Of a stretch of 64,000 nt of DNA, positions 795 to 59,800 are shown piece after piece. Both the position numbers and the translations under genes were made by a program. The stretch spans positions 5,405,556 through 5,469,555 of the forward strand of contig NC_135187.1 in NCBI RefSeq assembly GCF_041146795.1. Direction: 5' to 3'. Each line of letters begins with the position of its first letter. Positions within the stretch are counted from its first letter, which is position 1. Source of the DNA: Maylandia zebra (taxonomy: Eukaryota > Chordata > Actinopteri > Cichliformes > Cichlidae). The notes under the pieces are model-generated. The model was not told the origin of the DNA. It searched no databases and saw only the letters and a list, made by a program, of their open reading frames with translations.

Positions 795-839
795 CGTGAT
801 CCTGTAATTACTGCTAGAATAATTTTGCTGTTAATTTTC

Positions 840-1395: not shown

Positions 1396-1449
1396 TTAAA
1401 TCACTCTCTGCTGAGCAACCTCTGAACCATGGTCAAACTTTGTATACAC

Positions 1450-39900: not shown

Positions 39901-41660
39901 TTATAGATGGCAGACAGTTGGTGTCGTAAACCACCCTCTGTTCAAAGATGTTCACTCACAGTGAACGTAAATGGCTTCTTTCACTCCTCTTTCAAACCAT
40001 CTGTCCTCTCTGTCCAAAATGTGAACATTGGCATCCCATTTCACCGAAACAATAACGTAACGCACAGTGTGATGTCAAAAAAGGCGCACACATTTGACGC
40101 TGCGCTTGTCTGGAGGAACGGAGTTTTCGAAAATCTCCACCCTGGCAGGAGGTTTTAAAAATCTCAGTTTTCAGTGACCAAAAACGCCGTTTACGTGTGG
40201 ACGAAAGGTGCAAAAATATGGGTTTTCAAAAATACCCGGGTACATGTGGATGTGTGGACAAAGCCTAAGGCTACGTCCACACTAATGCGTTTTCGTTTGA
40301 AAACGCATCCTTTTCTCTCCGTTTTGGCCTCCCATCCACACTGAGATGGCGTTTTCACAGATGGAAAACACAGCGTTTTGAAAACACATACATTTCAAAA
40401 GGGTGCTTTCCGTGGCAGTGTGGACAGCGAAAATGGAGACTTTCTAAAACGATGACGCATGATGCAGTCATGTGATCAATTAAACTAAGGCTACGTTCAC
40501 ACTGCAGGCAAAGCGCATCAAATCCGATTTTTTTGACCCTATGCCACCCATATCCGATCATGGTATGACAGTGTGAACGGCACAAATCCGATATTTTCAA
40601 ATTCGATTTGGGTCACTTTCGTATGTGGTACTGAATCCGATACATATCTGATGTTTTAGAAAGCGACTGCTGTTTGAACGGTCATGTCGCATTAAATCCG
40701 TCTTTTATGTCACTGACACAAGACAGACGCCAATTATCAGCGCCGGGGAAGCGCCCGAGAAGACATCGCGAACGCTTCCTGGCCATCCCGTGTAGATGTT
40801 AGTGAAACTGTTGGAAAGACAACGTGAACATTTTATTTGTACTGCATAATCTGCAGATTCTGACAGAAATCTGCAGCTATCCTTTGAAGCACCGCTCCTC
40901 TCTAAAACAGCAATAAGGATCATTATTAGGTTATCTACATTATTATGTAAATAACAAAATAACTTAAAGCAAAATTTGGGAAACGTAAAGTCTGAAGTCT
41001 TTCTATTAAGGGCCATCAGTCAAACAATATTGTTTGCTTTGGGTCTAAACAGAGCGCGTTGTGTATGACATCTTCTTTTGCGCATGCGGGCCGCATCGAG
41101 CGTTCACACTAGAGCACGTTTGCTGTCGCATTTTATTTGTAGTGTGAACAAGCAGACAAAAAAAATTGGATTTGTTCAAAAAAATCGGAATTGAGCATTA
41201 AGACCTGCGGTGTGAACGTAGCCTAAGATAGCGGAGGGCATTATACAGCAGTGGTTTTGTTTGCTCTCAATTTTGACAGCCTATTAAAGATTAATATCAG
41301 TCTGTACATGCTCCAGATAGCTTTTCTTCAAATTCTTTAACTTTCACTCGCTTTTGCAACGTTGTACTTTTGTGTTACTTGCAGCAACAACTGTACCTCA
41401 TTGTTATTCCATTTAAAAAACTTGGTGCTTTTCCTCAACATTTTGCTGCGACGTTTCAAAGAGCCGGAAAGTAAATAAGCGGCAGACAGAAATGAGGCAG
41501 GTCAAATCATCTTGGGTTTCACATATGAGCAGTACTGGAACGTAAGCGTTTTCGGCTGTTTCAATGTGGACGCACAACTCTGTGAAAATGACTGAAAACG
41601 CTACTGTGGACGCGGAGCGTTTTCATACACGAAAACGCCTTTCAAATCTATCCGGGCTAC
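39900..41660. mobile_element. Nest of Harbinger-like MITEs
   Basis: An outer element starts at 40269 (GGCTACGTCCACAC, preceded by TAA) and ends near 41660; its interior is rich in GTTTTC-type inverted motifs. An inner 735-bp element (40489-41223) has inverted ends GGCTACGTTCACAC and a TAA duplication on each side (40486-40488 and 41224-41226), as PIF/Harbinger elements make. A partial right end of another copy lies at about 40180-40265. Confidence 0.6.
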
Positions 41661-42089
41661 TATTAAAAACCAAAACAAACAAACAAACAAATAAAAAAAA
41701 ACATTAAAAGTCACAAAAACCTACAAGGGCACTTAACACCACACACAGTCAAACAAAATACACAAAAAAGTATTAAACAGAAAAAAAAGTATACAATCCT
41801 AGTAATTTGCACCCCCACAGGTGAACTGCTGCCTGAGCCAAATGTAGTTGTTGTGATATTTGATCCCAGCGCACTCCAAAAAGGAATGTAGAATAGTTCT
41901 GTGGCGACTGAAACAAGTCAAACATTGCTGTAAACAACCATCAAAACGCACGGGAAGGGATCACGAAAGCCCGACTACTTGGGCACAACAATTATAAACC
42001 GTCTCACAAAATAAAACTGTAGACAGGACAAGATAGCAGTTCCTTAAAGGATGGGCCCAAAACAGTGGATGCTGCAGGCGTTTCCCTCA

Positions 42090-43045
42090 TCCTGACACAT
42101 ATCTTTATATTTTGCTGGGCAAATTTGGTTACCAGGAACAGTAATTTCTTGACAAATGTGCAATCATACAGGTGTGGTGAAAAGTTTAGATTCACTCCTT
42201 ATGGGTATGAGTGTTATGGGAATTTGGGTTTTTAATGATTTAGCTGAACTGTTTTTTGTTTTTTTTACCTGAATGGTATGATTGTACAGTATTGTATCTT
42301 TAATGACTTTAAAAAGTAAGAATTGGGTGCACACGTTTTTAATTTACTGAGGAGAACAAACGGCTACATGGCAGCTGTGTCACTGACAACTGACAATCTA
42401 AATGTTCTTGCTTAACAATGACTGTAAAAAAATCAACATTGATCAGAAACTTTTATTCCTCATTTATGCAAACAGATTGAAAATTGGACTTATTTCAAAT
42501 ATACAGTTATGTTGTTTAAAACTGTTCACTATAAATGAGTTTTTAGCTTCAGCCTAAACTGAAAATGTATACACAATCTGAAGACAAATAAAACAAAGCT
42601 CAAAATCAAGATCTTTTTTTTAATTTTTTGTTTTTTATTATTTGTTGGTAATAATTTCATGTGGTCTTTAGTGAACAGTTCCACAAGTTCTTGTTACTCT
42701 TCTGGGCTTTTAAATAAAGTGAGTAATCTTCTTTGTAACGCCAGGTAAACTTTAGCGTACACATGAAAACATCCTAGAGAAGATATTTGGTCTCTTAAAT
42801 GGTGCATTTCTTATGAAACTTTTGACAATCTCTTTGTCAACATTTCGGTGGCCAATTTTCATTAACTGCATGACAGTGTTTGGATATTTCCACTTATCCT
42901 GGAGTTCATTGTATACTGCCACGCTGACCTCTTCAATGTCCTCCAAGGAGATTTTGAGCTTTTTGGACACAATTTTAGCCCAGACTTTTTGGGCAAGCCT
43001 CTGTTTAATGGCTTCATCAGCCCCTAGAGGCAATTTCCCTGCTTC
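42090..43045 (-). pseudogene. Inverted, 5'-truncated third copy of the 564-codon gene
   Basis: Coding sequence at 42752-43045 gives about 97 codons equivalent to residues about 470-564 of the 564-aa protein, ending with the shared signature RRPNIFSRMFS/KRPNIFSRMFS and stop. Protein identity over this part is only about 55-60 percent by eye. By contrast the 3' flank down to about 42090 is nearly identical to the flanks at 47865-48730 and 53238-54440, apart from insertions in those copies. The 5' part is cut off at a TA microsatellite. It lacks a promoter and start, so it is probably a broken paralogue. Confidence 0.75.
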
Positions 43046-43076
<31 letters not shown>

Positions 43077-43090
43077 TACATATATACACC
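43046..43090. repeat. (TA)n/(CATATA)n microsatellite, left flank of the LINE
   Basis: About 45 bp of alternating TA with ACATAT units at the 3' end of the LINE. Confidence 0.9.
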
Positions 43091-45812
43091 CAGCACGCCC
43101 CTACGGGCGGTTTATCCTTCAAGCTCGGGTCCTCTACCAGAGGCCTGGGAGCTTGAGGGTCCTGCGCAGTATCTTAGCTGTTCCCAGGACTGCGCTCTTC
43201 TGGACAGAGATCTCCAATGTTATTCCCGGGATCTGCTGGAGCCACTCGCCTAGCTTGGGAGTCACCGCACCTAGTGCTCCGATTACCACGGGGACCACCG
43301 TTACCTTCACCCTCCACATCCTCTCGAGCTCTTCTCTGAGCCCTTGGTATTTCTCCAGCTTCTCGTGTTCCTTCTTCCTGATATTGCTGTCATTCGGAAC
43401 CGCTACATCGATCACTACGGCCGTCTTCTTCTGTTTGTCTACCACCACTATGTCCGGTTGGTTAGCCACCACCATTTTGTCCGTCTGTATCTGGAAGTCC
43501 CACAGGATCTTAGCTCGGTCATTCTCCACCACCCTTGAGGCCATCTCCCATTTTGACCTCGGGACTTCCAGGTTATACTCGGCACAGATGTTCCTGTACA
43601 CTATGCCGGCCACTTGGTTATGGCGTTCCATGTATGCCTTGCCTGCTAGCATCTTGCACCCTGCTGTTATGTGCTGGATTGTCTCTGGGGCATCTTTACA
43701 CAGCCTGCACCTGGGGTCTTGCCTGGTGTGATAGACCCCAGCCTCTATGGATCTTGTGCTCAGAGCTTGTTCTTGTGCTGCCATGATTAGTGCCTCTGTG
43801 CTGTCTTTCAGTCCAGCTTTGTCCAGCCACTGGTAGGATTTCTGGATATCAGCCACCTCCTCTATCTGCCGGTGGTACATACCGTGCAGGGGCCTGTCCT
43901 TCCATGATGGTTCCTCGTCTCCCTCCTCTTTCTTGGGTTTCTGCTGCCTGAGGTATTCACTGAGCACTCGGTCAGTTGGGGCCATCTTCCCAATGTATTC
44001 TTGGATGTTTGTTGTCTCATCCTGGACTGTGGTGCTGACACTCACCAGTCCCCGGCCCCCTTCCTTCCGCTTAGCGTACAGCCTCAGGGTGCTGGACTTG
44101 GGGTGAAACCCTCCATGCATGGTAAGGAGCTTTCTTGTCTTTATGTCAGTGGCTTCTATCTCCTCCTTTGGCCAGCCTATTACCCCAGCAGGGTACCTGA
44201 TCACGGGCAGGGCGTACGTGTTGATGGCCCGGATCTTGTTCTTACCATTCAGCTGACTCCTCAGGACTTGCCTGACCCTCTGCAGGTACTTGGTGGTTGC
44301 AGCCTTTCTAGCGGCCTCTTCATGGTTCCCATTTGCCTGCGGGATCCCCAGGTACTTGTAACTGTCCTCTATGTCTGCAATGTTGCCTTCTGGTAGTTCA
44401 ATCCCCTCAGTTCTGACTACCTTCCCTCTCTTTGTTACCATCCGACTACACTTCTCCAGTCCGAACGACATTCCAATGTCATTGCTGTATAGCCTGGTAG
44501 TGTGGATCAGTGAATCGATGTCTCGTTCACTCTTGGCATACAGCTTGATGTCATCCATGTACAGGAGGTGGCTGACAACTGCTCCGTTCCGTAGTCGGTA
44601 TCCGTAGCCAGTCTTGTTAATGATCTCACTGAGGGGGTTCAGGCCTATGCAGAACAGCAGTGGGGACAGAGCATCTCCTTGGTAGATCCCGCACTTGATG
44701 GTGACTTGTGCTATGGGCTTGGAGTTGGCCTCTAGTGTTGTACGCCACATCCCCATTGAGTTCCTGATGAAGGCTCTTAGGGTCCCATTGATCTTGTACA
44801 ATTCTAGGCATTCCAGTATCCAGCTGTGGGGCATTGAGTCATAGGCCTTCTTGTAATCAATCCAGGCAGTGCACAGGTTGGTCAGTCTGGTCTTGCAGTC
44901 TCGGCTGACTGTTCTGTCTACCAGTAGCTGGTGTTTTGCGCCTCTGGTATTCTTGCCAATTCCTTTCTGTGTCCCACTCATGTATTGACCCATGTGCCTG
45001 TTCATCTTAGCCGATATGATGCCTGACAGGAGCTTCCATGTAGTACTGAGGCAGGTTATTGGTCGGTAGTTGGAGGGGACCGGTCCCTTCTTGGGGTCCT
45101 TGGGGATCAGGACCGTCCGACCTTCGGTTAGCCATTCCAGGTGTCTCTCGTTAACTAGCAGCTGGTTCATTTGTGCTGCCAGACGCTCGTGGAGTGCAGT
45201 CAGCTTCTTTAGCCAGTAGGCGTGAACCATGTCGGGCCCTGGTGCTGTCCAACTCTTCATACTGGAGACCCTTTCTTGGATATCTGCCACTGTGATGGTT
45301 ACTGGACCCTGTTCAGGGAGGTTGCTGTGGTCTGCCCTCAGATCCACTTGCCACTGAGCATTGCCGTTATGGGTTGCGTCCTTCTCCCATATGCTCTTCC
45401 AGTATTGCTCCGTCTCCAGCCTTGGTGGTGCTGTTCTCTTATTATTGTTCCCTTGCCACTGAGAGTACACCTTTGCTGGTTCTGTGGAGAACAGCTGGTT
45501 TATTCTCCTGCCTTCTATCTCTCTGGTGTACCTCCTCAAGCGGCTGGCCAAGGCTGTGAGTCTTTGCTTGGCAGTTTCCAAGGCCTCAGGTATGGACAGC
45601 TTGCTGTATTTCTTTTGCACCTTCGTTGTCGCACCTTTCTGCAACTCCGTTAGTTGGCTAACCTCCCTCCGTGCTACTTTGATCTTGCCCTCTAGCCTCC
45701 TTCTCCATGGAGGGTACTGCCCCTTGTGGCTGTTCAACTTGTAGCCAAGCATCTCACTGATCAGTGCTGCCGTATTGTAGATCAGCTTGTTAGTGTCGGT
45801 AATCGTGGTTGT
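43088..45812 (-). mobile_element. RLE-type non-LTR retrotransposon (R4/Dong/Rex6-like), long ORF
   Basis: An almost 900-codon open frame (stop at 43134) includes reverse transcriptase with PSNYRPITCLSTTWKLLSGI, AWIDYKKAYDSMPHSW, IYQGDALSPLLFCIGLNP and the catalytic LLYMDDIKLYAKS (YMDD at 44550-44561). It is followed by a CCHC knuckle (CRLCKDAPETIQHITAGC, about residue 715) and a C-terminal restriction-like endonuclease (QPDIVVVD...AVVIDVAVP, about residues 799-818). This order defines the R2/R4-type LINEs with a site-preferring endonuclease. The 5' end starts in microsatellite without the usual N-terminal zinc fingers, so it is 5'-truncated. The frame has no stops, so the insertion is young. 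It reverse-transcribes its own RNA at a nicked target. Confidence 0.85.
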
Positions 45813-45882
45813 AGGTATATATACATATATATATATATATATATACACACACATATATACATATATATATATATATAATTAA
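45813..45882. repeat. (TA)n/(CATATA)n microsatellite, right flank of the LINE
   Basis: The same microsatellite type as on the other side, then the unique sequence that begins the duplicated unit (attaagtagcttctcatt). Confidence 0.9.
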
Positions 45883-45986
45883 GTAGCTTCTCATTATTAT
45901 TAATGTCCTGCAGCTGTGTCAAAGTTTAGCTAAAAACACATTTCAAGGTTCTTTGTTATCAATTGCTGAGCAGCAAGAAAGCCGGA

Positions 45987-46121
45987 TGACGTCACAGTGG
46001 CTGCACCCATCTGTGCTACTGTCATCTAGCGGTTGATAGGCAACAGTCATTCTATGTGGGCGGGACTTGGCAATTATCAAAGGGCAGTGGGCGGGGCCTA
46101 CAGGACCCGAGCCTATAAATA
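45987..46121 (+). promoter_or_regulatory. Promoter of the 564-codon gene, copy 1
   Basis: Contains a perfect CRE (TGACGTCA, 45987-45994), an X-box-like GTTGATAGGCAAC (46032-46044, one base off the palindromic form in copy 2), GGGCGG-type GC boxes and a TATA box (TATAAATA, 46114-46121). The TATA lies about 50 bp before the start codon, so the 5' UTR would be only about 20-25 nt. The motif set looks like a real RNA polymerase II promoter. Confidence 0.65.
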
Positions 46122-46169
46122 GAACTCCAGAACTCCATAAACACCTGCGATTTAGTTCAGAGCGCATTC

Positions 46170-47864
46170 ATGCATCAGAACAGCGAGCAACATTTAAACA
46201 CATTTAGTTCACAAAGAGCAGACATACCTGCCACAACATCAACCCCCCAGCAATTTGTTTCCACTTCTCCAATTCAGAGTCAAAGAAGTAGAAATACAAC
46301 CTTCAACATGACAACTCCACACAGTTACTCCTCAGAGGAAACATGGAAGTCCTTAAGCGACTACTTTTTTGGTACAATTGTACCACAGTGGAGATCTCTG
46401 CAGTTAAACCCAGAGTACTGCAACTCTAAGCTGCCTTCCACTTTGTTAAAGGACATGTTGAAACTTTGCTCCATGTTAGTGGATGCAACAGAGACAACCA
46501 TGGAGAAGGGAGCTCCTGTGTCCACACAGTCAGAGGAGTGTCTTGAGTCAGTGGACACTGATTCCCATGAGAAAACAGGGGTAACACGAGCAAAGGAAGA
46601 CATGGTAACAGAAATATCTGTAGACAACTGTGTTGATAATAAAAAAACAGGTACTCCGGAACTGGAGACAGAGGCCAGTGCAAGTCTTCAGCATGTGGAC
46701 ACACAATCCCAAACCACAGCCACAGCAGAACCAATAAAGAGCTGTATGAAGAAAAAGTCCACAGCTGATACAAAAGACTGGGACAAAATAGAAGCTTGTC
46801 CCATGAAAAAGCCTGCAATGCCAGCTGCATATGAGTCAGACGTTGATAAATGCAAGGAAACGGAGGCAAAAGGAGGAAAAGACAGCATCCTGAAAGAAAT
46901 ATCTGTAGACAACTTCAGTGATAATAAAAAAACAGATACTGCAGAACTGAAGACAGAGGCCGGCAAATGTCTTCAGCATGTGGACACACAATCCCAAGCC
47001 ACAGCAGAACCAAAGAAAAGCTGTATGAAGAAAAAGCCCACAGCTGATACAAAACACTGGGACAAAATAGAAGCTTGTCCCGTGGAAAAGCCTGTGATTC
47101 CAGCTGTACGTGAGTCAGAAGTTCATTCTTCTTCTGTCATCAGTCTGGCATCTGATGATGTGTCTGCAGAAAAAATGTTTGTTTATGCACTTACTCAGTT
47201 GGTAGTTTCACGGGCCTTAGAGAAAGTCTCCTCTAAACACAAAGACTCCACAAGGATTCCCAACTGTTATCGTCTGATGGAGAAAATCTGGCCTGAAATT
47301 GAGGGAAAACATTTGGATCTATGTCCAAAGAGGCTGCCCAGTATTGCGAAAGCCGTTTTCACCAATCTTTGTAAAGTGCATAAGTGCAAGGAAAAACATT
47401 TGATTTCAAGTCTGAAGGAAGAGCTTGAGGATGATATTACTGTCCCAACATTCACCAGACATCTGCTGGCATTACCCAAAAGAATACTCACTTTATCTAA
47501 AAACCGAGACGAGTACAGAGAACTTGTGGAACGCTTTGCCAGAGATCTGGTTATGCACGCAATGAGCAACATAAAGGGGTTGAAGGAATGGGGTCCAGCT
47601 GAAGAAGTTATACAGAGGCTTACCGAAAAGATCTGGGCTAAAATTGTGTCCCAAAATCTTGAAATCTCCTTGGAGAACATGGAAGACCTCACTGTGACAG
47701 TATATAATGAACTCCGGGAAAAGTGGAGAGGTGCTGACAATGTCCTGGGGTTTATGAATAATGGAAATCCAAGACTTGACAAAATGATTGTCAGAATTTT
47801 CAAAAGTAAGGCCCCATTGAGAAGACCAAATATCTTCTCTAGGATGTTTTCATCTGTACGCTAA
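46170..47864 (+). CDS. Unrecognised intronless 564-aa protein, copy 1
   Basis: I do not recognise this protein. The ATG at 46170 is the first after a TATA box, and the frame runs uninterrupted to the stop. The layout is a Ser/Thr-rich N-terminus (1-60), a hydrophobic-aromatic segment (SDYFFGTIVPQW, about 63-74), then two copies of an approximately 95-residue hydrophilic repeat (about 148-242 and 243-330). Each repeat has EISVDN, LQHVDTQSQ, SCMKKK, DKIEACP. These are followed by two related alpha-helical domains (about 337-436 and 451-550) with the shared core EKIWPEI/EKIWAKI, and a basic tail RRPNIFSRMFSSVR. No signal peptide or membrane segment is evident, so an intracellular role is likely. 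Copy 2 differs at 10 residues. Confidence 0.75.
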   Translation: MHQNSEQHLNTFSSQRADIPATTSTPQQFVSTSPIQSQRSRNTTFNMTTPHSYSSEETWKSLSDYFFGTIVPQWRSLQLNPEYCNSKLPSTLLKDMLKLCSMLVDATETTMEKGAPVSTQSEECLESVDTDSHEKTGVTRAKEDMVTEISVDNCVDNKKTGTPELETEASASLQHVDTQSQTTATAEPIKSCMKKKSTADTKDWDKIEACPMKKPAMPAAYESDVDKCKETEAKGGKDSILKEISVDNFSDNKKTDTAELKTEAGKCLQHVDTQSQATAEPKKSCMKKKPTADTKHWDKIEACPVEKPVIPAVRESEVHSSSVISLASDDVSAEKMFVYALTQLVVSRALEKVSSKHKDSTRIPNCYRLMEKIWPEIEGKHLDLCPKRLPSIAKAVFTNLCKVHKCKEKHLISSLKEELEDDITVPTFTRHLLALPKRILTLSKNRDEYRELVERFARDLVMHAMSNIKGLKEWGPAEEVIQRLTEKIWAKIVSQNLEISLENMEDLTVTVYNELREKWRGADNVLGFMNNGNPRLDKMIVRIFKSKAPLRRPNIFSRMFSSVR

Positions 47865-47989
47865 AGTTTACCTGACACATGGTGGCGTTACAAAGAAGAT
47901 TACTCACTTTATTTAAAAGCCCAGAAGAGTAACAAGAACTTGTGGAACTGTTCACTAAAGACCACATGAAATTATTACCAACAAATACC

Positions 47990-48210
47990 AACAAATTACC
48001 AACCGGTCGCAGCAGATGGCCGCCCCTCCCTGAGCCTGGTTCTGCCGGAGGTTTCTTCCTGTTCAAAGGGAGTTTTTCCTTCCCACTGTCGCCAAAGTGC
48101 TTGCTCATAGGGGGTCATATGATTGTTGGGTTTTTCTCTGAAGCGCCTTGAGGCGACTTTTGTTGTGATTTGGCGCTATATAAATAAAATTGAATTGAAT
48201 TGAAATAATA
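47990..48210 (+). mobile_element. LINE 3'-end type repeat in copy 1 3' flank
   Basis: Contains 'cctgagcctggttctgccgg', 'gggagtttttccttcccact' and the tail 'tttggcgctatataaataaa' followed by ATTGA repeats, a very common fish LINE tail. It is absent from the inverted third copy, so it inserted after that copy split off. It may supply the polyadenylation signal (AATAAA). Confidence 0.7.
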
Positions 48211-49341
48211 AAAAACAAAAAATTAAAAAAAGATCTTGATTTTGAGCTTTGTTTTATTTGTCTTCAGATTGTGTATACATTTTCAGTTTAGGCTGAAGCT
48301 AAAAACTCATTTATACTGAACATTTTTAAACAACATAACTGTATATTTGAAATAATTCCAATTTTCAATCTGTTTGCATAAATGAGGAATAAAAGTTTCT
48401 GATCAATGTTGATTTTTTTACAGTCATTGTTAACCAAGAACATTTAGATTGTCAGTTGTCAGTGACACAGCTGCCATATAGCCGTTTGTTCTCCTCAGTA
48501 AATTAAAAACGTGTGCACCCAATTCTTGCTTTTTAAAGTCATTAAAGATTCAATACTGTACAATCATACCATTCAGGTAAAAAAAACAAAAAAACAGTTC
48601 AGCTAAATCATTAAAAACCCAATTCCCATAACACTCATACCCATAAGGAGTGAATCTAAACTTTTCACCACACCTGTATGATTGCACATTTGTCAAGAAA
48701 TTACTGTTCCTGGTAACCAAATTTGCCCAGCAAAATATAAAGATATGTGGAGGGGCCAACGACTTTGTACATTACCATACATAAAACAAAACTATGATCT
48801 CTTTAAGGTCTGCCAATATCAAACATTAAAATAGTTGACAGCAAAGGGTCCACAATTAAAAAGTTTTTCTAGCAATACAAAGTGCTGTGTCACCCCTAAG
48901 GTTCAAACATGTAAAGTCAAACACACACTTGTTTCATAGCACATGAAAATAAAAACTAACTAACTATTAAATCATGATACATCCTAAGTGCAGAGCCAGC
49001 ACTGGATAGTTCAGGTGTACTATAATCAAGTGGTAATGACAAGAACTGCTAAGATACCAAGAACATACCCACAGAAACAAACAATGCTGTTACCAATATT
49101 CTTATCTGTACGATATCAATGGAACTGATAATATGAAATATTAGTCAGATATTGCTTTTTTTTTCTAGTATGAATATAAAAAGAAATAAATTAAATAATT
49201 ACTGAAGTGTATGCAGTGACTTTTAAGATGACTTTATTGACCAAATCATGGTCAAATCATAGCACTGGGTTACTTAAAAAAACCCAGCATGAGAACAGAT
49301 TTTGTTATCACGAACACTTTTCTGCCCACTGTTTCAGCAAA

Positions 49342-49612
49342 TTATTCTTTAAAGCATGAACCCCAGGCAGAGCACTGAGTACCAAGACCCACGAACACCT
49401 TTTGAATTACTTCAAAAGTGTACCTTAAGTCCTTTAGATAGTCCAGGTTAAGTGCATAGATGAGTCCAAGCAAAAGTGCAGCTGCATTACGGAAATCACA
49501 GACGTCATTGAGGACAATCTGATCCTCAATCACCAGGGCAATGCTTGTTATTGTTGGGCTTGAGCAGATGGTCCGAAATTGTGTCAGTAATTTTTCTCCA
49601 GAAAGTGAAAAA
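49342..49612 (-). pseudogene. C-terminal exon relic of a multicopy fish gene family, copy 1
   Basis: The minus strand reads YFSLSGEKLLTQFRTI, then VIEDQIVLNDVCDFRNAAAL and LDYLKDLRYTFEVIQKVF to a stop at 49342. The pattern resembles the C-terminus of a widespread uncharacterised fish family (SAM-domain-containing 3-like). A single open exon with no visible partner exons; probably a relic. The repeat at 55047-55300 is its duplicate. Confidence 0.45.
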
Positions 49613-49757
49613 TATAACCTTCATACCAATCCCCCCCCGCCCCGAAATATTATTTAGGCTCCAAGTTTCTTCTAAGTTAGCATGAAAGGGCTTTTACAAT
49701 TTTGTTTTCTTTTAATTCTTTACCAGAAATCTATTGTTCACAATTTAAAAGAAACTA

Positions 49758-50350
49758 ACGGTGTGTTCACACCGGACGCAATAGAAGCGACCAAAAAGCG
49801 CCACACGCCCCTAGCTGGTCGCTTGCACATTCGCACCTTGAAGCGCATTCAAAGCAAACTGGTCGCACTTTAAAATACGCAATTTTCACGTGCGTGAACC
49901 AGAAATGTGGGAGGAAGTAGTGCCAGACGGTATGTTTGCAAGATGGCAGCTGTCGATCTAGCGTTTGAAGAGAGAGTCTCCCTTCTCTATTTACTGTGGA
50001 GAGCAGAGCAGCGGCGTAAAGGACGTCCTGACCGTACCTGGGTCCATCAGGTCCTCCACGAGTGTGAGCAGTTTGGTGAGTTTCACCACTTGCTCCAGGA
50101 GATGCGTCTGACTGACGGCCACTTTCAGCGGTACCACCGTCTGTCCCTCGCCCAGTTTGAGGAGCTGCTGTCCCGCGTCGGTCCAAGCATCGCCCGCCCA
50201 GACATCACAGACGCACGGACTGCAATTAAATTTAAATCTTGAAAATATCTTAACCCATTGTTGCGACTTCTATCCACAAATAAAGCCGCTGCCGGCTGAG
50301 TTTGTTTCTGTACTGTGACGCGTCTCCAATAAGCCATACTAAGTCCCACT
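49758..50350 (+). mobile_element. PIF/Harbinger transposon fragment with transposase N-terminus
   Basis: It starts with the Harbinger-like end GGTGTGTTCACACCGGACGC. The frame 49907-50242 encodes VHQVLHECEQFGEFHHLLQE and LTDGHFQRYHRLSLAQFEEL, typical of the N-terminus of fish Harbinger transposases (HARBI1-related). It stops after TAIKFKS, well before the DDE catalytic region, so it is defective. No right inverted end was found. Confidence 0.7.
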
Positions 50351-50990
50351 TGTGTTTCACGTATTTATTTGAAACTAAAACAATAAACGTTTGCTTTCAA
50401 TCAAAACAAATAGCGCATGTATTAACTTACATCGTTTGTGAGCATTTATTGAATCTTTATTTTAAACATGTTTAAATAAAAACAACAGGGGAAAAAGAGA
50501 CAAACAAACAAAAGGAAAACAAAGCAACAATATGTATAAGTAACTTACATGTTCAAAAGGACTAGGAAGAAGCATAAGCTTATTTAATCCCACCCCCTTT
50601 CCACTATTTAGTAATTAATAGTCAAATTAATAGTCAACACTTTTTCTTCCCTCAGAAATTCAATACAATTACATTACATAATGCATGTAATTTTTATTTA
50701 TTTAACCCCAGTAATACGTCAAAAGATATACAATTTACAGACATATATGCATACTTGTGCACCCACAACACACATATATACACATCACTGTTGTGAAAAT
50801 AGTGGGTGAACACCCGATCAGAGCCACCACCTCCCTGATGAGTACGCCTGTGTCACGTAAATAACACGCGATCACCTGAGGTGCAGGAAAATCTAAACAC
50901 CTGTACAACCACAAAAAATAATCAAAACATAAACATTCACTTTGGCTCTTACACACTTTTTAAAACCCTTTTTGTATTTATCTATTTATT

Positions 50991-51117
50991 GCAGGGCATT
51001 AATAATAATGAGAAGCTACTTAATAATAATGAGAAGCTACTATATATATAAACACACATATATGTGTATATATGTGTATATATGTATGTATGTACATACA
51101 TACATATATACATATAT

Positions 51118-51188
<71 letters not shown>

Positions 51189-51217
51189 CACATATATACA
51201 TATATATATATACACAC

Positions 51218-51253
<36 letters not shown>

Positions 51254-51284
51254 AAGTAGCTTCTCATTATTATTAATGTCCTGC
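50991..51284. repeat. Palindromic AT-rich repeat: 34-bp inverted arms around a TA microsatellite
   Basis: The left arm 50991-51024 and right arm 51251-51284 are inverted copies with one mismatch (core AATAATGAGAAGCTACTTAA). Between them are about 225 bp of (TA)n/(CATATA)n. It directly precedes the promoter of copy 2. Such palindromes form cruciforms and are known rearrangement hotspots. Confidence 0.85.
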
Positions 51285-51359
51285 AGCTGTGTCAAAGTTT
51301 AGCTAAAAACACATTTCAAGGTTCTTTGTTATCAATTGCTGAGCAGCAAGAAAGCCGGA

Positions 51360-51494
51360 TGACGTCACAGTGGCTGCACCCATCTGTGCTACTGTCATCT
51401 AGCGGTTGCTAGGCAACAGTCATTCGATGTGGGCGGGACTTGGCAATTATCAAAGGGCAGTGGGCGGGGCCTACAGGACCCGAGCCTATAAATA
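51360..51494 (+). promoter_or_regulatory. Promoter of the 564-codon gene, copy 2
   Basis: CRE TGACGTCA at 51360-51367, an inverted-repeat X-box GTTGCTAGGCAAC at 51405-51417 (RFX consensus type), GC boxes, and TATAAATA at 51487-51494. Read on the minus strand the X-box contains CCTAGCAAC, the core of the MHC X1 box. CRE plus RFX sites are also typical of male germ-line promoters. Either reading is inference. Confidence 0.7.
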
Positions 51495-51542
51495 GAACTC
51501 CAGAACTCCATAAACACCTGCGATTTAGTTCAGAGCGCATTC

Positions 51543-53237
51543 ATGCATCAGAACAGCGAGCAACATTTAAACACATTTAGTTCACAAAGAGCAGACATAC
51601 CTGCCACAACATCAACCCCCCAGCAATTTGTTTCCACTTCTCCAATTCAGAGTCAAAGAAGTAGAAATACAACCTTCAACATGACAACTCCACACAGTTA
51701 CTCCTCAGAGGAAACATGGAAGTCCTTAAGCGACTACTTTTTTGGTACAATTGTACCACAGTGGAGATCTCTGCAGTTAAACCCAGAGTACTGCAACTCT
51801 AAGCTGCCTTCCACTTTGTTAAAGGACATGTTGAAACTTTGCTCCATGTTAGTGGATGCAACAGAGACAACCATGGAGAAGGGAGCTCCTGTGTCCACAC
51901 AGTCAGAGGAGTGTCTTGAGTCAGTGGACACTGATTCCCATGAGAAAACAGGGGTAACACGAGCAAAGGAAGACATGGTAACAGAAATATCTGTAGACAA
52001 CTGTGTTGATAATAAAAAAACAGAAACTCCGGAACTGGAGACAGAGGCCAGTGCATGTCTTCAGCATGTGGACACACAATCCCAAACCACAGCCACAGCA
52101 GAACCAAGAAAGAGCTGTATGAAGAAAAAGTCCACAGCTGATACAAAAGACTGGGACAAAATAGAAGCTTGTCCCATGAAAAAGCCTGCAATGCCAGCTG
52201 CATATGAGTCAGACGTTGATAAATGCAAGGAAACGGAGGCAAAAGGAGGAAAAGACAGCATCCTGAAAGAAATATCTGTAGACAACTGCAGTGATAATAA
52301 AAAAACAGATACTGCAGAACTGAAGACAGAGGCCGGCAAATGTCTTCAGCATGTGGACACACAATCCCAAGCCACAGCAGAACCAAAGAAAAGCTGTATG
52401 AAGAAGAATCCCACAGCTGATACAAAACACTCGGACAAAATAGAAGCTTGTCCCGTGGAAAAGCCTGTGATTCCAGCTGTACATCAGTCAGAAGTTCATT
52501 CTTCTTCTGTCATCAGTCTGGCATCTGATGATGTGTCTGCAGAAAAAATGTTTGTTTATGCACTTACTCAGTTGGTAGTTTCACGGGCCTTAGAGAAAGT
52601 CTCCTCTAAACACAAAGACTCCACAAGGATTCCCAACTGTTATCGTCTGATGGAGAAAATCTGGCCTGAAATTGAGGGAAAACATTTGGATCTATGTCCA
52701 AAGAGGCTGCCCAGTATTGCGAAAGCCGTTTTCACCAATCTTTGTAAAGCGCATAAGTGCAAGGAAAAACATTTGATTTCAAGTCTGAAGGAAGAGCTTG
52801 AGGATGATATTACTGTCCCAACATTCACCAGACATCTGCTGGCATTACCCAAAAGAATACTCACTTTATCTAAAAACCGAGACGAGTACAGAGAACTTGT
52901 GGAACGCTTTGCTAGAGATCTGGTTATGCACGCAATGAGCAACATAAAGGGGTTGAAGAAATGGGGTCCAGCTGAAGAAGTTATACAGAGGCTTACCGAA
53001 AAGATCTGGGCTAAAATTGTGTCCCAAAATCTTGAAATCTCCTTGGAGAACATGGAAGACCTCACTGTGACAGTATACAATGAACTCCGGGAAAAGTGGA
53101 GAGGTGCTGACAATGTCCTGGGGTTTATGAATAATGGAAATCCAAGACTTGACAAAATGATTGTCAGAATTTTCAAAAGTAAGGCCCCATTGAGAAGACC
53201 AAATATCTTCTCTAGGATGTTTTCATCTGTACGCTAA
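51543..53237 (+). CDS. Unrecognised intronless 564-aa protein, copy 2
   Basis: Same length and architecture as copy 1. Differences (copy 1 to copy 2) by my reading are G161E, S172C, I189R, F249C, K289N, W297S, R314H, E315Q, V403A and E473K, with about three silent changes. Four of these touch or create Cys/Trp/Arg, and none breaks the frame. The X-box in its promoter is intact. The function is unknown; the two helical C-terminal domains suggest a protein-interaction role. It may be the better expressed copy if the X-box matters. Confidence 0.75.
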   Translation: MHQNSEQHLNTFSSQRADIPATTSTPQQFVSTSPIQSQRSRNTTFNMTTPHSYSSEETWKSLSDYFFGTIVPQWRSLQLNPEYCNSKLPSTLLKDMLKLCSMLVDATETTMEKGAPVSTQSEECLESVDTDSHEKTGVTRAKEDMVTEISVDNCVDNKKTETPELETEASACLQHVDTQSQTTATAEPRKSCMKKKSTADTKDWDKIEACPMKKPAMPAAYESDVDKCKETEAKGGKDSILKEISVDNCSDNKKTDTAELKTEAGKCLQHVDTQSQATAEPKKSCMKKNPTADTKHSDKIEACPVEKPVIPAVHQSEVHSSSVISLASDDVSAEKMFVYALTQLVVSRALEKVSSKHKDSTRIPNCYRLMEKIWPEIEGKHLDLCPKRLPSIAKAVFTNLCKAHKCKEKHLISSLKEELEDDITVPTFTRHLLALPKRILTLSKNRDEYRELVERFARDLVMHAMSNIKGLKKWGPAEEVIQRLTEKIWAKIVSQNLEISLENMEDLTVTVYNELREKWRGADNVLGFMNNGNPRLDKMIVRIFKSKAPLRRPNIFSRMFSSVR

Positions 53238-53362
53238 AGTTTACCTGACACATGGTGGCGTTACAAAGAAGATTACTCACTTTATTTAAAAGCCCAGAAG
53301 AGTAACAAGAACTTGTGGAACTGTTCACTAAAGACCACATGAAATTATTACCAACAAATACC

Positions 53363-53580
53363 AACAAATTACCAACCGGTCGCAGCAGATGGCCGCCCCT
53401 CCCTGAGCCTGGTTCTGCCGGAGGTTTCTTCCTGTTAAAAGGGAGTTTTTCCTTCCCACTGTCGCCAAAGTGCTTGCTCATAGGGGGTCATATGATTGTT
53501 GGGTTTTTCTCTGAAGCGCCTTGAGGCGACTTTTGTTGTGATTTGGCGCTATATAAATAAAATTGAATTGAATTGAAATA
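53363..53580 (+). mobile_element. LINE 3'-end type repeat in copy 2 3' flank
   Basis: Orthologous to the repeat at 47990-48210, including the ATTGA tail and AATAAA. It was therefore present before the duplication. Confidence 0.7.
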
Positions 53581-53927
53581 ATAAAACACAAAAAATAAAA
53601 AAAAATCTTGATTTTGAGCTTTGTTTTATTTGTCTTCAGATTGTGTATACATTTTCAGTTTAGGCTGAAGCTAAAAACTCATTTATACTGAACATTTTTA
53701 AACAACATAACTGTATATTTGAAATAATTCCAATTTTCAATCTGTTTGCATAAACGAGGAATAAAAGTTTCTGATTAATGTTGATTTTTTTACAGTCATT
53801 GTTAACCAAGAACATTTAGATTGTCAGTTGTCAGTGACACAGCTGCCATATAGCCGTTTGTTCTCCTCAGTAAATTAAAAACGTGTGCACCCAATTCTTG
53901 CTTTTTAAAGTCATTAAAAATACAATA

Positions 53928-54253
53928 ATGGTAAATGGCCTGTATTTATATAGCGCTTTACTAGTCCCTAAGGACCCCAAAGCGCTTTACATATCCAGTC
54001 ATCCACCCATTCACGCACACATTCACACACTGGTGATGGCAAGCTACATTGTAGCCACAGCCACCCTGGGGCGCACTGACAGAGGCGAGGCTGCCGAACA
54101 CTGGCGCCACCGGGCCCTCTGACCACCACCAGTAGGCAACGGGTGAAGTGTCTTGCCCAAGGACACAACAACCGAGACTGTCCAAGCCGGGGCTCGAACC
54201 GGCAACCTTCCGATTACAAGGCGAACTCCCAACTCTTGAGCCACGATCGCCCG
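53928..54253 (-). mobile_element. tRNA-derived SINE
   Basis: Reading from 54253 leftwards there is an A-box-like TGGCTCAAGAG (54233-54243) and a B-box GGTTCGAGCCC (54190-54200), then a body ending in 'ggccatttaccat'. This is an RNA polymerase III-type SINE head. The insertion is absent from the matching place in copy 1 (about 48548-48556), so it is younger than the duplication. Confidence 0.8.
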
Positions 54254-55046
54254 TATAATACTGTACAATCATACCATTCAGGTAAAAAAAACAAAAAAAC
54301 AGTTCAGCTAAATCATTAAAAACCCAAAGTCCCATAACACTCATACCCATAAGGAGTGAATCTAAACTTTTCACCACACCTGTATGATTGCACATTTGTC
54401 AAGAAATTACTGTTCCTGGTAACCAAATTTGCCCAGCAAAATATAAAGATATGTGGAGGGGCCAACGACTTTGAACATTACCATACATAAAACAAAACTA
54501 TGATCTCTTTAAGGTCTGCCAATATCAAACATTAAAATAGTTGACAGCAAAGGGTCCACAATTAAAAAGTTTTTCTAGCAATACAAAGTGCTGTGTCACC
54601 CCTAAGGTTCAAACATGTAAAGTCAAACACACACTTGTTTCATAGCACATGAAAATAAAAACTAACTAACTATTAAATCATGATACATCCTAAGTGCAGA
54701 GCCAGCACTGGATAGTTCAGGTGTACTATAATCAAGCGGTAATGACAAGAACTGCTAAGATACCAAGAACATACCCACAGAAACAAACAATGCTGTTACC
54801 AATATTTTTATCTGTACGATATCAGTGGAACTGATAATATGAAATATTAGTCAGATATTGCTTTTTTTCTAGTATGAATATAAAAAGAAATAAATTAAAT
54901 AATTACTGAAGAGTATGCAGTGACTTTTAAGATGACTTTATTGACCAAATCATGGTCAAATCATAGCACTGGGTTACTTAAAAAAAACCCAGCATGAGAA
55001 CAGATTTTGTTATCACGAACACTTTTCTGCCCACTGTTTCAGCAAA

Positions 55047-55300
55047 TTATTCTTTAAAGCATGAACCCCAGGCAGAGCACTGAGTACCAAGACCCATGAA
55101 CACCTTTTGAATTACTTCAAAAGTGTACCTTAAGTCCTTTAGATAGTCCAGGTTAAGTGCATAGATGAGTTCAAGCAAAAGTGCAACTGCATTAGGGAAA
55201 TTACAGACGTCATTGAGGACAATCTGATCCTCAATCACCAGGGCAATGCTTGTTATTGTTGGGCTTGAGCAGATGGTCCGAAATTGTGTCAAACATTGAT
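55047..55300 (-). pseudogene. C-terminal exon relic of a multicopy fish gene family, copy 2
   Basis: Reads LTQFRTICSSPTITSIALVI, then EDQIVLNDVCNFPNAVALLL and LRYTFEVIQKVF, with stop at 55047. The exon is cut at its 5' side by the duplication boundary near 55288, and a minisatellite replaces the rest. Confidence 0.45.
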
Positions 55301-55575
55301 ATTTGACATCACAACATAGAGATGAATCTGGCAGGTCTACCAGAACGAGTAAGAGCTGACCTAGAAAAGAACCCAGACTTTGTGGTCGCAAATTCTACAA
55401 AATGGGAGAGACACGTAATACATAGACTTCAGCTTGATATTTGACATCACAAAAGAGAAGCGAGTCTGGCATTGATATTTGACATCACAACAGAGAAGCG
55501 AGTCTGGCATTGATATTTGACATCACAAAAGAGAAGCGAGTCTGGCATTGATATTTGACATCACAGCAGAGAGAC
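55288..55575. repeat. 38-bp minisatellite
   Basis: Unit approximately ATTGATATTTGACATCACAA...GAGAAGCGAGTCTGGC. About four units at 55430-55575 and a diverged one at 55290-55340. Confidence 0.8.
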
Positions 55576-55636
55576 TGGATGTGATGTCAGAAAGATGACT
55601 GTGATGTCAGAACCCTCTAAATGTTGTAATTTACAG

Positions 55637-55785
55637 ATGGTAAATGGCCTGTATTTGTATAGCGCTTTACTAGTCCCTAAGCACCCCAAAGCACCTTACA
55701 CATCCAGTCATCCACCCATTCACACACCGGTGACGGCAAGCTACATTGTAGCCACAGCCACCCTGGGGCGCCCTGACAGAGATAG
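55637..55785 (-). mobile_element. 5'-truncated SINE fragment
   Basis: Matches the 3' half of the SINE at 53928-54253 ('atggtaaatggcctgtattt', 'aagctacattgtagccacag') but lacks the tRNA-like head. Confidence 0.75.
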
Positions 55786-55911
55786 TTAATTCCAAATGAT
55801 TTGACTGCATCATTGGGTCTTTGAGTTATGACCCAAACTCTCTATCAACTTTGTGAATAAATTCACGTCCCCCTGTGACCTCATAATTACACCACAGTTC
55901 AGATAGCATGA

Positions 55912-56280
55912 ATGAGTCATGAGGTCACACCAACAGTGACATCAGCAGTTAGAACCCGTGACATGGAGCAGGTACCGCCATTTTGGACCTTGTCCTTGCA
56001 GCAGCCTGAAAGTGAGCCAATGGAGAGAATAGCTCAGCGCTTAGAGCTCCTCATAGAGCAAAATAGAAGGATTAGTGCTAGGATGGAGAACCTTGAATCA
56101 GAGCTGAGAAAGGAACAGACTGAGAATGTGAGGCGTGAAGGGAGGCGTGAGAAAGCACCACAGAGTGCCCTTGCTGACCTCGCAAGCAACGTAGGTCTAG
56201 GTCTAGGTCTAGGTCTTGCCATAACGGGCACTATTTTCGGTGCAGTTTACCTGCCCACCCAGATAGCAAGGAGACATTGA
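55912..56280 (+). CDS. Hypothetical 122-aa ORF with coiled coil and hydrophobic end
   Basis: The frame encodes a likely coiled coil (about residues 38-80: ERIAQRLELLIEQNRRISAR) and then a Gly-rich hydrophobic stretch (LGLGLGLAITGTIFGAVYL) encoded in part by a short AGGTCT tandem repeat. The last residues (PTQIARRH) are encoded by the terminal repeat of the transposon that starts at 56258, so the original C-terminus is lost or replaced. No known family recognised; it may be a fragment of a repeat-borne gene. Confidence 0.3.
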   Translation: MSHEVTPTVTSAVRTRDMEQVPPFWTLSLQQPESEPMERIAQRLELLIEQNRRISARMENLESELRKEQTENVRREGRREKAPQSALADLASNVGLGLGLGLAITGTIFGAVYLPTQIARRH

Positions 56281-59200
56281 ACAGATGTTGATTTTCCATC
56301 TGAACCATCAGAATCGTCAGGATTGAAATGTCAACACAAAACCAATGTTGAAACAACATTGAAATACTGATGAAACCTTACACTGACATTGAAATAACAT
56401 TGATTCACTGTTGTTCTGTCATCGTTGATTGTTGATCTATTTATAGTTGACAAGGTGACAACAATCACGTTGAAAAACCATCGATTTATGGTTGAGCGGG
56501 AAATTAAAGCTGCTACCACTTGGACTATTCCGCAGCACCCCTATCACATTGGTACATCCCTCCAGGTAACCATTGTCTTGTACAGTAGAGCGGGACATTA
56601 GATTTACTCTCAGCGGAATTGACCGGAGAAGGCATCAGTTCATGCACTGCACTGGCCTGCACCACGATTAGTATAAGGTAAGAATGAATGACTTTTGTTC
56701 TATTCGTTATTTCCACGGTTGCATTTGGATAACAGTAAAAAAAAAAAAACTTGTTAATGTAAAGTTTCGGATAAAATGTGGGAGCCCGAAATTGTGTCTA
56801 CTTTCATCTTACAATCCGGCAACAAATAAATTGCACTGCAAACAAAGTCTATCAACAAAGAAAACATTTTCGTTTCATACTTTTCCGTTATATTCCCTTA
56901 CAAAGCTAGCTTTAACGCTTCGAGGGTTCCTTTGTTCTTGCCGTCGCCTCGGCGCTTGACCCAGACTTTCGCTCTGTAGTTGCTTTTTAGCGTAGTACTA
57001 CAAAAAAACTGTAAATCTGTGATATATGATTGATAAACGTAAAGGTAACTGTATAAATGTGTTCAATGACTTTGTTACTTTTAATGATTGGAGAGCACCC
57101 GCTTCGATTCGCACTCAATTCAAACTTAACGTTGCACGCTCACCTAACTTTACGCTGCACGCTCACCTAACTTGCGTTTGCACCTTTTGTCCACACGTAA
57201 ACTGCGTTTAGCATTTACGTGTGGACGAGGAAGACGGAGAAAACGCAGCGTCAAAGGTGTGCGCCTATTTTCACGCCACACTGTGCGCCAAGTTTTTGTC
57301 TCGGTGCCATGAATTCCTACAATGGCAGACTTAGACAAAATACTGTTAATTTTATTATCTTCAGTGTTTAAATGCTTACATATACGGGTTTGCTTGTAAT
57401 TGTTGCCTATATACATTTTAAGCTATTATTTATTATTTAGTTCAATCAATAGATCAAGTTTTGTAGTGACTATGAAATATATTGTAATTATCTGTTTCCT
57501 GTTTATCCTAGACAGGGCAAAAAAGGACTCCAAATTTAAAAAAAGATAAAAATGAAAGACTGGTGCATTGTGCAGTTTAGCACTGGTGGTACAGAAATAG
57601 TCCCTAGATCATGGATAAATGGGGAGAAATTGTCATGGCCTCCATATCCTCCGTGAGACACATTCAGGATCCACGACGCAGTAAAGAGGAGAGTTCATCC
57701 TGGTGCAACATGGCTCACCTATGCACCAGTCCGACTTCTAATAAGCCATGGTGGGTATCATCTGGATTGGTGTTGTATAAATGTAACAATAACAAGTTTT
57801 TCGTGTCCTAATTTATGTCTGGCCATACATTGTGTTTGTACTTCCAGACACATTTCACGAAGCAGAACGCAGTCTTCAGAAATATCTAAGTGAACACTGT
57901 GATATGTCTGACCTTCAGTCCGAAGCTGAAACTCAGACCAGTCATAAAAGAAAGCACAAGTAAAACTTTTTTTATTTCACAAACATATCTTTGATTGCTA
58001 AGAATTTATGATCTTGTCTTTTATACATATCTGTGGTGCTTGCATACTGCAATATCACCACATAATATAGTCCAAAAAGTGGAAGCTTGTAAACTTTTTA
58101 TAAATGCAAAGCCGTGTACACTTGTGCACTTCAAAAATTCCTTGTATACTGTACCTTCTTGCACATCTCCGTTTCCTGTGTGTGTTGTTATAAATCAAAC
58201 TGTAACTTTAGGAAAAAATATTCCAAAAGCACATTTGTAATTACTTATGACCGTTTTCAACTTTTTTTCTTTAGACCAAATCCCCTGTACACATATAGTG
58301 ACTCAGAGGATGAGCAGCCCACAAAGAAATGGTTTCCCCAGGCCCCTCGAGTGAAAATACCAGGTAATAAAATACTGTCTAGTGTCTTTGTACATATCTG
58401 TGTGTGACACAAGGAAACTTTTGATAAGTTGTCTGTATTCTTAAATACTTAAAAAAATTTTATCTTTTTCTGTCAGACCTGACGAGAGCTGTTAACGAAC
58501 TCCGTGAGGAGGTCAGAGCCATCCGCAATACCGGCTGCAATGAATCGGTAGATGCTGGGGTACTGCCTCTGGATTTGCCCTTGCACAACATTGAGGAGCT
58601 AAACAATGCAGAGCCAGCTCTTCAATCACAAGAGGCAAATAAGGCAATGGTAAGTATATAAAGGTTATATACACTTTGTAACTATAAAGTGTAATAGCTG
58701 TCAGATGTGATTTAAATACATAACAACGGCCTGTTGATTAAACACACAAGCACTTGCATACACATTTAAGACATGAGACACGCTAATTCCATCTCTTAAA
58801 ATGTGTCTATAGGTGAGACGCTTTGCCTTGATTGGAGCCTGACGCAGCAGTTAGGGGCAAACTCTATGTCCGAGTTTGTCTTTGCACAAGCAGTGCAGAA
58901 ATGGCTCCGATACGCCCCAGATCGTTTGGGTGGTGCAGGACGCACATCATGCAAAAAATTACAAACTTCTGTGAATCATATAAACGTAAATAGGAAACTG
59001 TCTTTTAATAAAGTATTTAGCAAACGAAACATGCCTATTGACCTTTTTTTGTTTATTTTTTTTCTCTCTTACATCACATGCAATGCTTTCTTATTTTAGG
59101 ATATTAATATTGACATGATACATTGTGAGACATTTGGGGTTTTTTTTATAAAGGGTGTCCAATTTAAGGAATAAGTACAATTATGTGTTTAGGTGGTTGA

Positions 59201-59570: not shown

Positions 59571-59649
59571 CACCTTGATAACATAATAACTATACTGTAC
59601 TCTCATTTATGTTCATTTTTATTTTGCCCTCACCTCCCAACCAGTCATG

Positions 59650-59800
59650 ACAGAAGACTGCCCCACACTGAGCCTGGTTCTGTCACAGGTTTCTTCCTGT
59701 TAAAAGGGAGTTTTTCCTGTCCACCGTTGCTCATAGGGAATCACTTGATTGTTGGGGTTGAATTTTTGGATTGAATTTAATTGCCTTAAACTGAAAATCA
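59650..59800 (+). mobile_element. LINE 3'-end type repeat, degraded
   Basis: 'ctgagcctggttctgtcaca' and 'gggagtttttcctgtccacc' match the repeats at 48030-48110, with a decayed tail. Confidence 0.6.

Follow-up and report, generated by a model that had tools for sequence, protein, structure and literature searches.

A large unclassified gene family in the cichlid Maylandia zebra, a candidate ampliconic family of the germline

Two near-identical open frames in a 64,000-nucleotide stretch of the Maylandia zebra genome (the window) are part of a wider family. The same 962-Mb genome contains at least 136 related loci, spread over 18 contigs, and many of them lie in tandem arrays. We read the two frames as members of a large, unclassified ampliconic gene family, probably expressed in the germline and possibly shaped by genetic conflict, and assign this reading a probability of about one half. 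Because the sequence has multiplied, often in tandem, with most copies readable, the family probably consists of working, fast-evolving genes and not of a transposon. Near-identical coding copies are numerous in the tandem arrays, as expected of an ampliconic tandem family.

The window copies and their protein

Copy 1 (46170..47864) and copy 2 (51543..53237) are intact frames of 564 codons on the + strand, as an earlier note on this DNA had described, and their proteins are 98.2% identical; copy 1 has a 100% match at C21:5451725-5453416. They would be recent copies within the larger family, and each forms one continuous coding frame, in agreement with the intronless gene proposed before. The surrounding duplicated units, both on the + strand, extend from 45816 to 49586, with the left edge inside an AT-rich microsatellite, and from 51183 to 55291, with an extra insertion at about 53931-54256. 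Outside the insertion they are 98.6-98.8% identical, which bears out their description as near-identical.

Two things had been overlooked: an inverted third piece on the - strand (copy 3, 42755..43024) and, outside the window, no fewer than 134 further loci. Copy 3 contains the last helical repeat and the C-tail alone, and its C-terminus is of another type, with 99% amino acid identity to a copy at C1:44.47 Mb and 53% to copy 1. Its 3' flank (42096..42743, - strand) is, in pieces, about 96-99% identical to the 3' flank of copies 1 and 2. Copies 1 and 3 have a non-LTR retrotransposon (43134-45854, - strand) between them, with a reverse transcriptase domain (PF00078, E 3e-26 in Pfam). It shares their AT-rich tract, but that Pfam scan did not detect PF00078 in copy 1, and the element appears to be a separate insertion. 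Tandem MHC class I-like genes, identified by eye, also adjoin the window copies. The Rfam search of window positions 40000-60000 gave nothing at the gathering threshold.

In copy 1, all on the + strand, the protein has an N-domain of about 50 residues (approximately residues 55-105; 46332..46484); a profile built from four remote members detected it with E 7e-4 in a set of 16 proteins. Two hydrophilic lysine-rich repeats of 92 and 90 residues follow (46570..46847 and 46855..47126), 82% identical at the DNA level. These had been called Cys/Lys-rich; the repeats are real and rich in lysine (12/92 and 15/90), but each has only three cysteines. The two related helical domains of the earlier description were recovered by a repeat profile as helical repeat 1 with an EKIWPEI core (47166..47474, E 6e-31) and helical repeat 2 with an EKIWAKI core (47508..47819, E 1e-36), both of which were in the profile seed. 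All eight proteins left out of the seed had at least one repeat below 1e-20. The frame translation ends in a basic C-terminal tail (47820..47861). Family proteins carry one to three helical repeats of about 100 residues each, and some have the N-domain. A single helical repeat was modelled confidently as five helices (repeat 2, pLDDT 84.7, pTM 0.78); a three-sequence model of the double helical domain reached a pLDDT of only 51 and was discarded as poor. Such a layout would probably be that of a soluble adaptor: a small helical N-domain (in one branch a coiled-coil-like stretch), then a linker that changes fast, and finally between one and three five-helix repeats with a basic tail.

The protein had been called unrecognised, and it stayed so in our searches. 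No match rose above its cut-off for 14 whole family proteins in Pfam or for five in NCBIfam; the strongest was NCBIfam NF009142 on the linker of the window protein (E 6e-4, 20 bits where the cut-off is 377). Among the 14 proteins, Pfam gave no transposase, integrase, reverse transcriptase or other mobile-element domain, and no immune domain (MHC, NLR and the like) over cut-off. Thirty single repeats gave scattered Pfam matches to 29 families, each with at most three of the 30 members; the best was PF25714 (E 5e-4, one member), with cut-offs seen for the first member only. Against the PDB, one protein searched by sequence reached E 0.075, which is not convincing, and of two profiles one gave nothing up to E 10 and the other a best E of 0.17. 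The window protein in IMG/VR and alignment A3 in prokaryote genomes gave 12 and 84 pattern matches, respectively, with no relatives among them. Nothing was recognised as this gene family in searches of an open-access literature collection; one paper (PMC8207432) reportedly deals with single-exon genes of sea bass.

One fold comparison, with 760 chains aligned, gave no strong relative, from which novelty of the fold does not follow. The repeat weakly resembles TFIIS domain II in this comparison, and the TFIIS central domain (PF07500) has, at a low structural score, a similar small five-helix arrangement. Family search and profile comparison gave no sequence relation to PF07500, which was also absent from the 25 of 29 families listed for the single repeats, and the family repeat is present one to three times per protein. 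We consider it very improbable that the repeat derives from the TFIIS central domain and that these proteins work on RNA polymerase II.

Family size, open frames and selection

The figure of 136 loci is a lower bound, counted from the best candidates scored among the matches listed; it includes some loci with short or stop-bearing frames and excludes 17 shorter, broken or frame-poor places, copy 3 of the window among them. The earlier picture of a single duplicated gene finds no support, because copies 1 and 2 belong to a family of this size. At least 78 close loci lie on 11 contigs, 71 of them stop-free over the part matched, and 53 of the 78 lie off C21 (among the matches listed). A further 33 loci are at least 91% identical to a C15 protein, L043, with 26 stop-free in the matched stretch. 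The remoter loci (eight on C9, eight on C19, two on C5, one on C22, five at C21:7.4-7.5 Mb and one on C4) are stop-free in 25 of 25 cases, and a C9 protein matches window copy 2 at E 1e-16 with 31% identity over 230 residues. A 2691-residue frame at C11:6.43 Mb was rejected as parent gene since it crosses a stretch that reads N. No multi-exon parent was recognised among the matches listed, where a remote one could be missed.

The matched stretch is stop-free in 122 of the 136 loci, although at least one of these carries a frameshift and another is interrupted by unread sequence. This count overstates intactness, because the copy adjoining the window at C21:5471776-5473211 is listed as stop-free yet is frameshifted. 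When 475 blind substitutions were simulated on copy 1, a mean of 13.4 stops arose and none of 1000 runs stayed stop-free; the frame of the C7 relative at this distance is open. Frames are thus open beyond chance in diverged paralogues only, and with openness kept over such divergence the protein is very probably translated.

The earlier note took the frames kept open after duplication as a sign of a working product. Copies 1 and 2 are uninformative here because they differ by only 14 changes, with a 0.55 chance of staying stop-free; the diverged paralogues do show selection. For helical repeat 1, dN/dS was measured in five older pairs and lay at 0.36-0.52; purifying selection is clear across older paralogues only. 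Close pairs range from 0.12 to 3.7 on few changes, which would fit relaxation as much as conflict. The L042/L051 branch, with a dN/dS of 0.12, looks like a case of ordinary purifying selection.

The shared promoter block

Each window copy has its own TATA box, CRE and X-box, as proposed earlier, and these lie at the same offsets in both. On the + strand, a motif scan placed the CRE TGACGTCA at 45987..45994 in copy 1 and 51360-51367 in copy 2. The X-box is at 46032..46044, with one mismatch to GTTGCTAGGCAAC, and at 51405-51417, where it is perfect; the GC-box GTGGGCGGGGC is at 46087..46097 and 51460-51470, and the TATA box at 46114..46119 and 51487-51492. The block of GC-box, CRE and TATA box, sometimes with an X-box, is also present in remote paralogues. 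Over 16 upstream regions, GC-box, CRE and TATA box were nearer to consensus than in single-base shuffles, for motifs picked after inspection of those promoters and with some of the 16 still close relatives after L044, L046, L050 and L051 were dropped as near-duplicates. An X-box with at most two mismatches occurred in only six of the 16 representatives, and L048 had no promoter element upstream of its assumed start.

A combined X-box and GC-box pattern matched 11 times genome-wide, always upstream of family members, against none for the reversed control, and it accompanies the family as far as C9. The eleventh match is not directly in front of its member, a frameshifted copy whose start is some 960 bases away beyond an inserted repeat. 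A short-spacing CRE-to-TATA pattern is not family-specific, because it gave three matches, all at C8:18.40 Mb and outside the family matches, versus four in the control.

The promoter of GC-box, CRE and TATA box, to which some branches add an RFX-type X-box, would point to restricted expression, with male germ cells as the likeliest site, and testis expression would fit a promoter of this RFX/CRE type. MHC class II promoters, too, contain a CRE-like box. According to PMC4498915, RFX2 and CREM in mouse have mostly separate sets of targets, which weakens the case for taking X-box and CRE together as a single testis signal. The same paper traces the original description of the X-box to MHC class II promoters, a history that would suit an ordinary lineage-specific multigene family in which a somatic role, for example in immunity, drives fast evolution in the absence of genetic conflict. 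The MHC class I-like neighbours in the window, the CRE-like box of class II promoters and the strongly conserved appearance of the L042/L051 branch point the same way. We regard this explanation as unlikely, though the strongest of the alternatives: most loci lie on other chromosomes (the 53 of 78 close loci off C21), no immune domain exceeded its cut-off in the proteins scanned, and the X-box and GC-box pattern goes with the family to C9.

Arrays, copy edges and the mode of spread

Adjacent units were 99.0-99.9% identical in the three arrays compared. The C7 array has a spacing of 3788-3796 bases, and four of five gaps in a C17 array measure 11,003-11,005 bases. Among the matches listed, members of the C15/C16/C17/C48 type form eight pairs in inverted orientation, separated by about 12-23 kb, and the tree places near-identical copies on different chromosomes. 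The C5 copy has 46-base inverted repeats (82% alike) on both sides of its frame. Inverted pairs, near-constant gaps, flanking repeats and dispersed copies are all features that a mobile element could produce, with the units as its cargo or themselves behaving as an element carrying a gene, moved by proteins from elsewhere.

The copy edges argue against this in the single subfamily for which they were aligned at base resolution: they are ragged and differ among its C3, C5 and C16 copies, and neither fixed terminal sequences nor target-site duplications were found there. The limits of the segment shared by the C5 locus vary with the partner: 1572-4003, in C5-locus coordinates, with the C3 copy, and 761-4039 and 1797-4260 with two copies at C16:20.9 Mb. 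Edges 761 and 4260 appear again in the comparison with the C16 array and may be those of the C5 copy itself. The dispersed C3 and C5:33.2-Mb copies retain CRE and TATA box, which speaks against a retrocopy origin, where the upstream promoter is lost. The earlier note would have taken high copy number across the genome with transposon ends, or a strong match to a known mobile-element protein, as refuting its reading; the high genome-wide copy number is there, but neither fixed ends in this subfamily nor a mobile-element domain in the proteins scanned was found. We consider a mobile element an improbable explanation.

Under the preferred reading, that of an ampliconic gene family, growth would have proceeded by DNA-level copying of a unit of gene plus promoter, with tandem array expansion and homogenisation and occasional jumps of units to other chromosomes. 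Copy 1 and a copy at C21:5.36 Mb form a mosaic pair, 97-100% identical over most of the frame and 67-85% over 47540-47839. The high copy number, the homogenised arrays and the apparent swapping of the last repeat between copies would resemble ampliconic germline families under conflict. Mouse Slx/Sly and Drosophila Stellate are ampliconic multicopy germline families and share with the fish family homogenised arrays of numerous near-identical coding copies, rapid change of the protein and a presence on several chromosomes. Unlike them, the fish family occupies at least 18 contigs and is only a candidate for germline expression and drive, and its protein is unrelated as far as tested. Family membership, the minimum copy number, the open frames, the shared promoter, the ragged edges in one subfamily and the mosaicism in one pair are observations; germline expression, the adaptor role and genetic conflict we infer. 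A bolder version, in which self-copying units of promoter and frame are co-activated as a selfish or counter-selfish germline family and swap the last repeat against a rival, as more than 100 weapons or shields, seems to us improbable as well.

With at least 136 loci, most of them open, and a repeat that no Pfam model recognised in these scans, the family would leave a large gap in the reading of this genome. Because the copies share a promoter block, expression can be tested in one step with ordinary RNA data. If it is germline-specific, the family would offer a vertebrate system outside mammals for the spread and evolution of ampliconic genes.

Copies within the window

The two 564-codon frames reported in the earlier note are both present, at 46170-47864 and 51543-53237 (+; copies 1 and 2), and their proteins are 98.2% identical. 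They lie in blocks of 3.8 and 4.1 kb (45816-49586 and 51183-55291) which are 98.6-98.8% alike once an insertion in the second block is set aside. Self-comparison of the window places a repeat in unit 2 only, at 53928-54256, and a relative of its first part (87%) lies 1.5 kb further on at 55637-55781. The described order of hydrophilic repeats, helical domains and basic tail also holds: two repeats of 92 and 90 aa are followed by two helical domains and the tail. The repeats are Lys-rich as claimed but contain only three cysteines each. A third family piece, absent from the earlier note, is an inverted fragment (copy 3, 42755-43024, -) with its 3' flank (42096-42743).

The AT-rich tract separating copies 3 and 1 contains a reverse-transcriptase element at 43134-45854 (-), a non-LTR retrotransposon whose 906-codon frame has an RVT_1 domain in a domain scan and which presumably resembles the restriction-endonuclease type. 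The 3' flanks of copies 1 and 2 carry an insert that we take to be SINE-like (47996-48202 and 53369-53575), which is absent from copy 3; a 75% alike relative occurs at 59637-59759. At the left edge of unit 2, an AT-rich microsatellite between inverted copies of one short sequence (50990-51285) could form a long hairpin. An open frame between the units (49907-50242, +) has a presumed likeness to the beginning of a Harbinger-type transposase. Several tandem repeats of MHC class I-like gene pieces (Ig-like domain plus alpha-domain exons) lie at 3009-28804 (-), as recognized by visual inspection of open frames and repeated segments.

Copy 1 and a copy at 5.36 Mb on C21, the contig holding the window, are 97-100% alike over most of the frame and 87-100% in the 3' flank, but only 67-85% over 47540-47839; they also diverge upstream of about 46040. 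Copy 3 carries the last helical repeat of the 5.36-Mb type (93-99% aa identity to two copies having it). Because the frame-wide likeness is broken at 47540-47839 and copy 3 has the other last repeat, the last repeat has apparently been swapped between genes that are near-identical elsewhere.

Family size and spread of copies

What had been described as a duplicated gene turned out to be part of a much larger set. Searching the 962-Mb genome, in which the window occupies C21:5405556-5469555, with the 564-aa protein yielded 106 matches (E up to 0.001), several being pieces of one gene, and further searches with relatives raised the count to at least 136 loci on 18 contigs, excluding 17 fragments or broken places. 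The matched stretch contained no stop in 71 of 78 close loci on 11 contigs, in 26 of the 33 loci at least 91% identical to the C15 protein, and in all 25 further loci (C9, 8; C19, 8; C5, 2; C22, 1; C21:7.4-7.5 Mb, 5; C4, 1), a measure that overstates intactness, since the 71 include a frameshifted locus (C21:5471776-5473211) and another that a stretch of N interrupts (C11:6.43 Mb). The latter copy spans G000:C11:6432487-6440560, G000 denoting the same genome. At G000:C21:5471776-5475662, just past the right edge of the window, the frameshifted member and a C-terminal fragment with 3' flank lie head to head with a promoter block between them. Working the other way, four copies at C21:9.54-9.56 Mb count as stop-bearing, and in the two that were read the stop falls three codons short of the usual end.

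Many members form arrays: 13 copies on C7 (spacing 3788-3796 bases), 12 on C21 (mostly 3830) and 17 on C16 (many gaps of 4065-4069). Adjacent units compared in three arrays share 99.0-99.9% identity over stretches of 2.9-4.2 kb that take in the spacer, and these arrays are therefore young or homogenized. In a tree of last repeats, near-identical copies from different chromosomes stand side by side.

The mode of copying was examined in one subfamily. Numbered along the C5:33.2-Mb locus, the segment common with the C3 copy is 1572-4003, and those common with two C16:20.9-Mb copies are 761-4039 and 1797-4260. Edges 761 and 4260 come up again in the comparison with the C16 array and possibly mark the ends of the C5 copy itself; no common terminus was visible among the edges compared for the C3, C5 and C16 copies. 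Because the edges are ragged and the dispersed C3 and C5 copies retain CRE and TATA, segmental or array-based DNA copying would fit this subfamily better than transposition or retrocopying. For the C15/C16/C17/C48 branch, a carrier element is possibly involved. The branch's eight inverted pairs, with members about 12-23 kb from each other (e.g., G000:C16:17681145-17700894, C15:21688950-21708793 and C48:95931-111965), and the C17 array (15.99-16.05 Mb; four of five gaps 11,003-11,005 bases, one 18,422) may belong to larger units, either mobile or duplicated.

Family membership, domain searches and evidence for coding

Judged from sequence, the tested proteins are one family. A profile of the helical repeat found at least one repeat, and at most three, in all 15 proteins tested, with a repeat below E 1e-20 in each of the eight outside its seed; three further stretches matched weakly (E 8e-6 to 0.01). 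A match with 31% identity (E 1e-16) links the C9 protein to copy 2. An N-domain profile from four remote members matches copy 1 (E 7e-4) together with two proteins related to copy 1 and two related to the seed, with no match in 7 of 16 proteins; in one branch, a coiled-coil-like N-terminus, read from the sequence, takes the place of this domain. The protein is indeed unrecognized: all Pfam and NCBIfam models stayed below cut-off on the whole family proteins scanned, single repeats gave only scattered weak domain-model matches, and PDB sequences gave no convincing match.

The argument that frames kept open after duplication indicate a working product fails for the window pair, which differs by 14 changes and would both be open by chance in 55%. 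It holds for diverged paralogues: a C7 relative at a distance of about 475 changes has an open frame, whereas 475 random changes to copy 1 introduced a stop in every one of 1000 runs. Over larger distances, the sequences thus make a strong case for coding. In five older pairs, dN/dS was 0.36-0.52 for repeat 1; the last repeat was looser in three (0.83-1.01), with 0.34 and 0.43 in the other two. Close pairs, with few changes each, gave 0.12-3.7. The 5' untranslated part of the genes may contain an intron.

A shared promoter and what the family may do

As the earlier note had proposed, TATA, CRE and X-box occur in both window copies; their offsets are the same in each. Across 16 upstream regions, left after removal of 4 near-duplicates, best matches had fewer mean mismatches than single-base shuffles for GC-box (0.94 vs 3.73), CRE (1.06 vs 3.46) and TATA (0.94 vs 2.47), with motifs chosen after viewing these promoters. 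An X-box with up to two mismatches was present in 6 of the 16; L048, a family representative, had none of the elements upstream of the start used. A genome-wide search for the exact X-box plus GC-box pattern gave 11 hits, against none in the reversed control. Eight hits immediately precede the eight C9 members, and two immediately precede C21 members, copy 2 among them. The eleventh, about 960 bases upstream of the frameshifted C21 member, is separated from it by an inserted repeat. Since the pattern was built from family promoters, finding members is expected, and its absence elsewhere is the informative part. Three CRE plus TATA promoter matches 7-9 kb apart at G000:C8:18397657-18413826 are not among the family matches and perhaps mark another tandem gene array with a similar promoter.

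From its promoter, the family is predicted to be germline-expressed, probably. Testis is favored because PMC4498915 describes both RFX2 and CREM as master regulators in mouse spermatids; the same paper describes their target sets in mouse as largely separate, which counts against testis. Copy number, homogenization and the swapped last repeat would suggest that genetic conflict shapes the family, and relaxed selection would explain much of the same. The domain layout prompts the guess that the proteins may serve as adaptors. The family is best understood as an ampliconic one whose copies share a coordinated promoter.
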